Positions 12,343-15,784 of a stretch of DNA of 34,623 nt are shown piece after piece. The DNA is from an uncultured Rhizobiaceae group bacterium (GTDB lineage Bacteria > Pseudomonadota > Alphaproteobacteria > Rhizobiales > Rhizobiaceae). The position numbers and the translations under genes are program-made. Location: NCBI GenBank assembly GCA_938030595.1, contig CALHIB010000036.1, positions 1 to 34,623 on the forward strand, given 5' to 3'. Every line of letters starts with the position of its first letter. Position 1 is the stretch's first letter. Under the pieces are notes generated by a model. That model saw only the letters and a program-made list of their open reading frames with translations. It was not told the DNA's origin and did no database searches.

Positions 12343-12927
12343 TTATCCTCGACGATCTACAATCTTGGTCCAATGACCAGAGTATTTTGAAGACTGTCGT
12401 TTGAGGTACGTGTATTCCGTTTCATTCCACTGTTTGATTTTGTCACTTAGATTATCCAAGACATAATCAGCACGATCCGTTCTAACGGTTAAGACTGCGT
12501 GACCTTCGCCATTAGGTTGTAAAACAACGGTAATAAGAAGGCTTGATGCAGGCCAGCCTCTTTGCATCAACATATGTCGCTTCATCAATACGTAGTCTTC
12601 GCAATCACCAATGCTTGTTGGATAAATCCAGTGCTCTTCAATACCAAAGCCTTCCATATCGGTGACCGGTGCAATGGTAGAATTTGAGTATGTATTGACT
12701 TCCACAAGATCTTTCCAGCGCTCGCGAGTAAGCTGAGGCGCGTTGGTTTTACGCGTGTTTATTTTACAATCTGATGGATATTGCTTGCAGTAATTGTAGT
12801 GACCAATCGGCTGTGATGTTAATCCGGCCAATTGCATGTGTGCGGTATTTGCCGCTTGCGCTGTTGTTGCTGAGAATGCGGTAATTGCTACCGTCATCAA
12901 CAAAGCGTTTTTAAATTTGTTTTTCAT
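12343..12927 (-). CDS. transglutaminase-like cysteine peptidase (DUF920/peptidase C93)
   Basis: Exported 194-residue protein. The signal peptide is MKNKFKNALLMTVAITAF..., cleaved near AQA-AN. The bacterial transglutaminase-like cysteine protease triad is visible: Cys109 in IGDCEDYVLMKR, His143 in GEGHAVLTVRT and Asp158 in YVLDNLSD. The family includes LapG, a periplasmic protease that releases surface adhesins under c-di-GMP control; this copy has no linked LapD, so that role is only a possibility. The ribosome binding site GGGGAA precedes the ATG. The leader can form alternative structures (see the hairpin at 12925-12962). The PilZ gene upstream on the same strand strengthens a c-di-GMP theme. 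Confidence 0.88.
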   Translation of the reverse strand: MKNKFKNALLMTVAITAFSATTAQAANTAHMQLAGLTSQPIGHYNYCKQYPSDCKINTRKTNAPQLTRERWKDLVEVNTYSNSTIAPVTDMEGFGIEEHWIYPTSIGDCEDYVLMKRHMLMQRGWPASSLLITVVLQPNGEGHAVLTVRTDRADYVLDNLSDKIKQWNETEYTYLKRQSSKYSGHWTKIVDRRG

Positions 12928-12962: not shown

Positions 12963-13255
12963 AGGTGTTGAGATCAAAAAAAGAAAACCACTCAACTTTA
13001 ATGAGAAGTTGAACCGCATTTAAATTGACTTTGGTTCAAGTTTTTTGAAAGTTTTATGAGAGTTTATGTAAAATTGTAACGAATATGAAATTTTATATAA
13101 AGATCAATAATTTAGCGCAGGGTTATTGATCTGTAAATTGTGGTTTGTAAAAAAAACTTAATTCAAAATCAAATACAAACGAAGGATGGCGCTCTAAAAA
13201 TAAAATTTCAACGCTAAAATAATTGTAATTATTTGAAAATTTTCTCTGACATATG
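12963..13255. other. AT-rich gene-free stretch
   Basis: The gap between the peptidase gene and the PilZ gene (12928-13290) is 363 bases. Apart from the leader structure at one end and the hairpin at the other, this strongly AT-rich part shows no convincing ORF, promoter pair or repeat. It must hold the peptidase promoter on the minus strand. Confidence 0.5.
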
Positions 13256-14001: not shown

Positions 14002-14637
14002 TTATTTTTCCAGTCCACCATCCAAGACAGTCAAATGTTTGACTTTACGAGGAGCATTTTGTGTTTCTGAGGTGGGCAATTGATGGGATCTGCTTGAGAA
14101 AACAGGCAGCTCTGGTGAAAGCGAGGGTGTTTCAAACGAATTTTCAAGATCCACTGTTCGGACCGATTTAATACGGTTGTTAACAACAGGATCGATACCC
14201 ATCCAAATAGGTGTTTCAGAAGGCGCAGCTGTGCCCAAAATTCGGACAGTTTCAGAGGAGCCATTTAAGAGCGGCAATAAAAGTGTTTCATATTCAAGAA
14301 AATGATTATTTTCAGTTTCTGCAATATGAGCAATCACAATCGGTTTGGCTTGATGGTAAACCTGTTTCACAGCATCGAATATCTTCAGATTATCGGCTTC
14401 ATCCCAAAGTCCCAGATATCCAACACTTTTCAATTCCCGTCCATAAGAGCTGCACAATTTCGTTCCAGCCAAACGGAAGCTGATCGTTCTATACAGATGA
14501 TCAACTTCTAAAATAAATGTATCCCCCAAAATATCTCTAATATCGCTAGGTTCAATTTCTGTACGCTCAGGGGCTACTCTCGTACCTCTTAGATTATTCC
14601 AATAAGTGAAAATCTTTTTAGAAGTCTTGTGTCTCAT
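14002..14637 (-). CDS. PAS_5 (DUF1457) domain protein
   Basis: 211 residues. Residues ~8-150 match the alphaproteobacterial PAS_5 family: FTYWNNLRGTRVAPERTEI, ILGDTFILEV and FRLAGTKLCSSYGRELK. The rest is a Ser/Pro-rich tail ending VKHLTVLDGGLEK. No output domain is attached, so it probably acts through protein contacts; single-domain PAS proteins such as Caulobacter MopJ affect cell-cycle or stress signalling. It lies 96 bases upstream of the PilZ gene on the same strand and may be co-transcribed with it. It is divergent from the structured RNA and rhomboid region. Confidence 0.85.
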   Translation of the reverse strand: MRHKTSKKIFTYWNNLRGTRVAPERTEIEPSDIRDILGDTFILEVDHLYRTISFRLAGTKLCSSYGRELKSVGYLGLWDEADNLKIFDAVKQVYHQAKPIVIAHIAETENNHFLEYETLLLPLLNGSSETVRILGTAAPSETPIWMGIDPVVNNRIKSVRTVDLENSFETPSLSPELPVFSSRSHQLPTSETQNAPRKVKHLTVLDGGLEK

Positions 14638-14717: not shown

Positions 14718-14819
14718 ACTGAACACAAGTTTGCAAGCGCCATGCCAAACTGAATGAGGGGAGATGCGTATAAAATGCTTAGACTACGGACTACGATAAA
14801 AGTCACAGTTGTTAACCTT

Positions 14820-14990
14820 AATATTATGTTAAGCTTGCAGGAACCAAAGTTTTATGGGAATTTGGTTCAACTCCTAAGAATGCAAAAGTTAACGAGTTGA
14901 GCATTCTTCACTATGAGGTCTGGACTGAAACACTCTTTTCAGTTGGGGATTGACCAACAGCCCAAGGTTTAATGCCTTGGGCTTTTTTTT
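14820..14990 (+). ncRNA. candidate structured small RNA with own terminator
   Basis: A strong plus-strand terminator (14959-14990) has no plus-strand gene upstream, and the ~140 bases before it are rich in complementary pairs. Hairpin 1 is GAACCAAA/TTTGGTTC (14841-14848, 14861-14868). Next are two interleaved helices, CAACTC/GAGTTG (14868-14873, 14894-14899) and AAGAATGC/GCATTCTT (14876-14883, 14901-14908). Hairpin 3 is ACTGAAA/TTTCAGT around CACTCT (about 14924-14943). The 5' end is a guess, as no clear promoter was found. Rhizobiales carry several intergenic sRNA families (the ar RNAs); I cannot assign this one. Confidence 0.6.
14959..14990 (+). terminator. rho-independent terminator of the orphan RNA
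   Basis: Perfect 9-bp stem AGCCCAAGG/CCTTGGGCT with a 7-base loop and eight T. It lies 51 bases before the rhomboid start codon, so rhomboid transcription must begin after it or rely on read-through. Confidence 0.9.
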
Positions 14991-15040
14991 GCCTGATCTT
15001 CTGATAAGTATGCTCTAAATGAAAAAGAGATATAAAAACC

Positions 15041-15784
15041 ATGCACCCAGCTGTTGATGAAACTACAACGCAACAAAAACAACCCATTTTCAATCTGCAC
15101 TGGATTATTCCTGCAACGATTGGGTTGATGGTGCTTATCCATTTTTTGCGTGTTTCAGTTTTGGAAGAACAATTGAACTATAATGTTATCGTAGAGTTTG
15201 CTTTTATTCCCATTCGATACGCACATGCAGAATTACTGGAACTTTCACCCTTTGCAATCTACTGGTCGCCAGTCACATATAGCTTGTTGCATGCTGATTG
15301 GGCACATTTGATTATGAATTCATTCTGGTTACTTGCCTTTGGCGGTTTAACTGCAAGAAGGTTAGGGGCTTCAGGCTTTGTAGTCTTGTTTGTTATTGGG
15401 GCAATTGCTGGCGCAGCACTTCATTATTTTTTCCATTCAAACGATATAGCCCCCATGATAGGGGCATCAGCCTCCGTCTCGGCGTGCATGGGAGCAGCAA
15501 TGAGATTGCCTGCTTTTTCTGAAGCTTCATTTGAGGGTGATGTATCGAAAGTAAGAATAAGATCATTGATTGAAGCTCTTACAAACCGTCAGGCTCTGAC
15601 ATTCATTGGAATTTGGTTTGGTATAAATTTATTATTTGGCACAGGCGTTATTGATATTACAGGCAATGGAAATCCTATAGCCTGGGAAGCGCATATTGGA
15701 GGGTTTCTAGCCGGACTGTTATTATTCGGATTTATTGATAGATTATTTAAACGCGACGATACGTCTTCAGCTGATAGCTTCTAA
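15041..15784 (+). CDS. rhomboid family intramembrane serine protease
   Basis: 247-residue polytopic membrane protein. The rhomboid active site is visible: HLIMN with Asn93 in the second core helix, catalytic Ser143 in GASASVSACMG, and catalytic His218 in WEAHIGGFLAGLLLFG. In the usual GxSG motif the last Gly is Ala here, which occurs in functional members. It cleaves transmembrane substrates within the bilayer; the substrate is unknown. An AAAGAGA ribosome binding site precedes the ATG. The 3' end overlaps the convergent patatin gene by 18 bases. Confidence 0.9.
   Translation: MHPAVDETTTQQKQPIFNLHWIIPATIGLMVLIHFLRVSVLEEQLNYNVIVEFAFIPIRYAHAELLELSPFAIYWSPVTYSLLHADWAHLIMNSFWLLAFGGLTARRLGASGFVVLFVIGAIAGAALHYFFHSNDIAPMIGASASVSACMGAAMRLPAFSEASFEGDVSKVRIRSLIEALTNRQALTFIGIWFGINLLFGTGVIDITGNGNPIAWEAHIGGFLAGLLLFGFIDRLFKRDDTSSADSF

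Follow-up and report, generated by a model that had tools for sequence, protein, structure and literature searches.

Features of the intergenic region between the PAS_5 and rhomboid genes

The window, by which we mean the whole stretch of 34,623 nucleotides of Rhizobiaceae DNA analysed here, contains an intrinsic terminator that lies between a PAS_5 gene and a rhomboid-family gene. The features of this region and its surroundings are as follows.

12343-12927, minus strand: BTLCP/Peptidase_C93 gene, to whose family the capsule-restriction factor HvyA of Caulobacter belongs, beside the PilZ and PAS_5 genes
14002-14637, minus strand: PAS_5 gene (PF07310), upstream neighbour
14812-14832, plus strand: CtrA-like box, composed of a half site TTAACC (14812-14817) and a full site TTAA-N7-TTAA (14818-14832)
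14835-14863, plus strand: putative sigma-70-type promoter, TTGCAG (14835-14840), 17 bp, and the -10 element GAATTT (14858-14863) after TATGG
14868-14990, plus strand: candidate small RNA gene of ~123 nt, matched over its full length by covariance model R1; its 5′ end is predicted to within ~5 bases and its 3′ end lies at the T run
14868-14874, plus strand: CAACTCC, the mostly unpaired 5′ tail of the RNA, with an anti-Shine-Dalgarno-like ACUCC
14868-14873 / 14894-14899, plus strand: interleaved helix CAACTC/GAGTTG, not a conserved element
14876-14908, plus strand: hairpin SL1, stem AAGAATGC (14876-14883) / GCATTCTT (14901-14908), loop AAAAGTTAACGAGTTGA
14917-14955, plus strand: hairpin SL2, outer stem GGTC (14917-14920) / GACC (14952-14955), inner stem 14923-14930 / 14937-14944
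14959-14990, plus strand: intrinsic terminator, which is hairpin SL3, stem AGCCCAAGG/CCTTGGGCT (14959-14983) followed by eight T
15041-15784, plus strand: rhomboid-family gene (PF01694), downstream neighbour

The first-pass annotation had described an orphan terminator with eight T between a PAS_5 and a rhomboid gene, and both the terminator and its position are borne out: an independent terminator scan also detects it, no plus-strand gene ends ahead of it, PAS_5 is encoded by the minus strand, and the start of the rhomboid gene lies 50 bases downstream on the same strand as the terminator. An excess of perfect pairs had likewise been claimed for the bases in front of the terminator. With a minimum length of 6 bp, the perfect stems in 14820-14990 are, besides that of the terminator, GAACCAAA/TTTGGTTC (8 bp, 14841-14868), TCAACTC/GAGTTGA (14867-14900), AAGAATGC/GCATTCTT (14876-14908) and ACTGAAA/TTTCAGT (14924-14943). 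The excess holds for the longer stems: five have 7 bp or more, where dinucleotide shuffles yield 1.2 (1% of them reach five), and three have 8 bp or more, where shuffles yield 0.3 (none of 300 reaches three); at a cut-off of 6 bp, five stems against a shuffle mean of 4.3 are ordinary. The folding energy of 14780-15000 has a z score of -2.5. Once the terminator is removed, that of the RNA is unexceptional (z = -1.3), and the case for an RNA is therefore based on the comparison with relatives and not on energy. The longest reading frame within the RNA has 19 codons, and a check of the reading frames revealed no coding potential.

Conservation of the RNA and its three hairpins

A DNA search within the genus identified the region in six relatives, all with PAS_5 on one side and the rhomboid gene on the other, and in most of them conservation extends from ~14811 to just past the terminator. 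We built a covariance model (R1) from 11 species, which gave full-length matches in each of the 12 genomes of the genus, in all three genomes sampled from a second genus, as well as a weak match in one genome of a third (G171). Every one of these matches lies beside the same PAS_5 gene, and also beside the rhomboid gene where the contig reaches that far. Eleven of the 15 strong matches had served to build the model, so that four (G005, G012, G120 and G190) are independent of it. Relatives whose rhomboid protein is 46-52% identical carry a diverged RNA in the same intergenic region, and a set of 32 loci at greater distance, spanning 176 kb, gave 12 R1 matches, most of them weak and every one located on the plus strand of the PAS_5/rhomboid intergenic region. 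PAS_5 is the conserved neighbour in 60 of the 80 named loci. Weak R1 matches outside this region in other genomes of the family (L034 and L036-L042) were rejected; they resemble ordinary gene-end terminators and have no features in common. A plasmid DNA search gave no match.

Beyond the two close genera the RNA sequence has diverged strongly, and homology there is argued from place, box, short motifs and terminator. Judged by these features, a large part of the Rhizobiaceae keeps the RNA in the PAS_5/rhomboid region, and it probably occurs more widely in the Hyphomicrobiales, including the relatives of Bradyrhizobium. In Bradyrhizobium, Rhodopseudomonas and Afipia the box usually takes the form TTAACGTTAAATTAA; behind it come CTCCAG, a G-rich segment and then a terminator, and homology of the RNA is likely there. 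Seven loci of Bradyrhizobium and Afipia (L092, L095, L100, L103, L109, L113 and L120) display strongly conserved GGTCAT and GGGGAGGGGTGGGGAT before the terminator in the same intergenic region, which suggests that they encode a related RNA whose G-rich part is longer. Upstream of the rhomboid gene of an Afifella genome (L094), three tandem terminator-like repeats (CCGGCGGCAAGAAAGCCGGCGG-T type) stand behind the RNA, and the rhomboid gene of G003 (L017) has one internal TGA in its reading frame.

Looking for covariation in the same intergenic region of relatives had been proposed in the first-pass annotation, and SL1, SL2 and the terminator indeed carry many compensatory changes, which argues for selection at the RNA level. 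In a 15-species alignment that was fitted to the covariance model, 93.1% of the cells in the three hairpins pair, and 23 of 30 pairs display changes on both sides. In SL1, 92.9% of cells are paired, with both-side changes in six of eight pairs; in SL2, whose internal loop carries GGGG (14945-14948), the outer stem is 93.3% and the inner stem 85% paired, and all eight inner pairs have changed on both sides; the terminator hairpin SL3 is 99.3% paired, with both-side changes in 8 of 10 pairs among the relatives. The covariation score of this alignment is 0.533, against 0.266 in shuffled alignments; sliding the structure along the sequence gives 0.174 at the most. An unfitted MAFFT alignment of 11 species shows the same trend, SL1 included. 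Taken together, the dedicated RNA ending at the terminator that had been postulated from the window holds up, being conserved in every relative of the genus and covarying in three helices. It displays three of the features expected of a bacterial intergenic sRNA gene, namely an intrinsic terminator of its own, no open reading frame, and covariation.

The same annotation had pointed out two helices in a-b-a′-b′ order and had taken them as either a pseudoknot or a two-state switch, in which CAACTC/GAGTTG would form against AAGAATGC/GCATTCTT. Both helices exist in the window, and AAGAATGC/GCATTCTT is real and conserved, but CAACTC/GAGTTG is not kept. Although perfect in six of the seven closest species (the window and all but one of its six closest relatives), the helix is disrupted in G002, G003, G004, G005, G010 and the second genus, and over 15 species it pairs in 68.3% of cells, no better than the 67.9% of shuffled columns. 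Each strand can also be conserved without the other, as in G003, where GTTAACGAGTTGAGC is kept and its partner is gone, and in G002, where CACTCC is kept and GAGTTG is gone. In addition, if all pairs formed, a single base would join the two 3′ strands, which would probably be sterically tight. The conservation of both interleaved helices that characterises an H-type pseudoknot is thus not found; the pseudoknot or switch is unsupported, since CAACTC/GAGTTG pairs as shuffled columns do, and we consider it very unlikely. The CAACTC and GAGTTG strands are more readily understood as two conserved motifs, separate from each other and unpaired. We also tried pairing the 5′ tail over a long range with GGGGATTG and rejected this (85.4% paired against 85.5% in shuffles), leaving a conserved sequence and not a shown pairing.

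The CtrA-like box, the putative promoter and alternative readings of the locus

In S. meliloti, the CtrA consensus is TAA-N7-TTAAC (PMC3616915). An exact TTAA-N7-TTAA occurs a single time in the 34.6-kb window, which by itself is not above chance; it is the place and the conservation of the box that exceed chance. The box is aligned in all seven closest species and recurs in the same intergenic region, mostly as GTTAAGGTTAAC-N6-GTTTACG-TTG, in Aminobacter, Mesorhizobium, Hoeflea, Nitratireductor, Salaquimonas and further Rhizobiaceae. Among the 60 named loci that have both PAS_5 and rhomboid as neighbours, 33 intergenic regions contain TTAA[CG][CG]TTAA, against one match in 360 kb of flanks. 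The conserved upstream TTAA-N7-TTAA, or a close variant of it, that marks members of the CtrA regulon is present, reduced to the half site in G003 and G004, which have also lost the ACTCC tail.

The box is followed by the putative sigma-70-type promoter. A consensus promoter scan did not report 14835-14863; the alignment of relatives shows TTG and then, at a similar distance, TATGG or, in many others, GTGGCAT. Extrapolating from this conserved -10 region, ~17 bp past the TTG hexamer, the RNA would start near 14868. The 8-bp hairpin GAACCAAA/TTTGGTTC, which the first-pass annotation had counted as part of the RNA region, is a perfect stem at 14841-14868 in the window, but it is not kept in the seven-species alignment and overlaps the putative -10 region. 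Because the promoter carries the CtrA-like box, the RNA is probably made under the control of CtrA, a regulator of the cell cycle. In many genomes (L157, L161, L154, L136 and others), the element TTAACCTTAAC-N6-GTTTAC-GTTG is found at a second place, before unrelated short membrane-protein genes (MRYIL..WGWYFLS and others), and the pattern occurs in 79 of the family's 109 genera. This element and the box of the RNA probably belong to a shared CtrA-type promoter class; as the same class of box also precedes an unrelated membrane-protein gene, it marks a promoter class and not this RNA, which fits a shared regulator.

On its other side, the PAS_5 gene adjoins a PilZ gene and the BTLCP/Peptidase_C93 gene. 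In S. meliloti, CtrA sites are reported for SMc00998 (BTLCP, the hvyA ortholog) and SMc00999 (PilZ-like), and G1-phase expression is reported for SMc00998 (PMC4241560, PMC4414408). Their adjacent locus numbers and their families suggest that these genes represent the same cluster as that of the window. A weak CtrA-like site in the window (13008-13023), ~80 bp upstream of the BTLCP gene, is not above chance.

Given this setting, the locus might be mainly a DNA element, a CtrA-like region that controls the divergent PAS_5 gene and whose downstream sequence is a passive transcript. The box does sit between divergent genes, and the CtrA sites of Sinorhizobium reported near PilZ and BTLCP genes of seemingly the same cluster (PMC4414408, PMC4241560) speak for it. 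Yet the compensatory changes in SL1, SL2 and the terminator indicate RNA-level selection, and the terminator together with the conserved spacing from TTG to the -10 region points to the plus strand, which makes this reading very unlikely. Somewhat less improbable, but still unlikely, is a cis-acting leader of the rhomboid gene, a riboswitch or attenuator whose terminator would be opened by a signal. For it speaks the rhomboid gene itself, which in the window is 50 bases downstream on the same strand and in the relatives is the constant neighbour. Against it, upstream pairing of the terminator's 5′ arm is not significantly above shuffles in any of the 15 species, the proposed two-state helix is not kept, and the distance from terminator to gene differs widely among relatives. 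The alternative antiterminator pairing that a riboswitch or attenuator would keep in its relatives was not found in the 15 species. With no antiterminator evident and so variable a distance to the gene, we favour a free RNA over a rhomboid leader.

Proposed action and comparison with known small RNAs

We consider it likely that the locus encodes a free-standing, trans-acting small regulatory RNA, probably controlled by CtrA and pairing with mRNAs via its 5′ ACUCC. What the analysis shows is conservation, synteny, covariation, the conserved box, the lack of an evident antiterminator and the presence of an Hfq gene; transcription, the start site, CtrA binding, action in trans and the seed are all features that we infer from the DNA. 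ACTCC is kept in the seven closest species, and 24 representative RNAs from different lineages contain 12 copies against 1.7 in shuffles (reached in none of 300). The 5′ tail is predicted to be unpaired in most, not all, species; in G009 and G001 it is predicted to pair with the GGGG motif. This counts against our reading, as do the reduced box and lost tail of G003 and G004, the box class before an unrelated gene and the divergence of the RNA outside the two close genera. Anti-Shine-Dalgarno motifs occur in several rhizobial RNAs (PMC3927594), and 11 of the 12 genomes carry an Hfq gene. In the mechanism we propose, the CtrA-linked promoter would drive the synthesis of a ~123-nt RNA with three hairpins and its own terminator, whose exposed 5′ ACUCC tail, perhaps together with the SL1 loop, would pair with the ribosome-binding sites of target mRNAs. 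Hfq would bind the U-rich end of the RNA, and the outcome would be translational control of mRNAs in trans.

None of the 4227 Rfam families matches the RNA at gathering score. Relaxed thresholds gave nothing credible (the best sub-threshold hit is Hrs12, with 28.3 bits against 70), and the same place in the loci of 20 relatives is also without a family match. The first-pass annotation had directed the Rfam search to the rhizobial ar families in particular, and the RNA belongs to none in Rfam. It resembles these families (e.g., ar14, RF02344) in being a short, terminator-ended intergenic alphaproteobacterial RNA, but ar14 was matched elsewhere in L068 and not at the PAS_5/rhomboid RNA. Among the papers searched, none assigns an sRNA to the interval between PAS_5 and rhomboid, although an RNA-seq table may list it as a nameless transcript. 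We regard the RNA as the member of a small RNA family that is new but of a known kind, and at the DNA level its predicted link to CtrA is well supported. Few sRNAs are tied to CtrA, and the CcnA paper left open whether rhizobia have their own (PMC8959179). The RNA is a concrete candidate for one: it is conserved, its boundaries, a structure model and a predicted regulator can be given, and it occurs in genera that can be cultured (Aminobacter, Mesorhizobium, Hoeflea and perhaps Bradyrhizobium). It also illustrates that an sRNA can be traced by place and promoter once its sequence has drifted beyond Rfam-style models.

Among the characterised RNAs of S. meliloti, EcpR1 (SmelC291) is likewise trans-encoded and widely conserved in the Rhizobiales, and it has hairpins as well as an unpaired motif that is conserved, but it lies downstream of divK-pleD and has two stem-loop domains and the loop motif UCCGCCGCAUCU (PMC4414408); the RNA described here has PAS_5 and rhomboid as neighbours, and UCCGCCGCAUCU is absent from 14868-14990. 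GspR (SmelC775) is also an sRNA with three predicted stem-loops and bears on the cell cycle, but it is flanked by SMc03844/SMc03845, and its homologs are described only in Sinorhizobium/Ensifer (PMC5928217). SmelC023 and SmelC289 have neighbours other than PAS_5 and rhomboid (PMC4414408, PMC5928217, PMC3927594).

CcnA of Caulobacter crescentus is a non-coding RNA whose presumed activator is CtrA and whose promoter region holds a predicted CtrA site; its authors sought a counterpart in S. meliloti without clearly detecting one (PMC8959179). By description it is set apart from our RNA, being 182 nt long, located at the replication origin and acting via a CCCC loop (PMC8959179), whereas the RNA of the window is ~123 nt long, lies between PAS_5 and rhomboid and has ACUCC and GGGG as its conserved motifs; CCCC (loop A of CcnA) is absent from 14868-14990. 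It is tempting to speculate, if on rather long odds, that the RNA is an order-wide, fast-evolving, CtrA-controlled sRNA that feeds back on cell-cycle or envelope mRNAs, the Hyphomicrobiales counterpart of CcnA, kept beside a PAS_5/PilZ/BTLCP cluster that itself looks CtrA-linked. By analogy, CcnA is the closest known system in logic.
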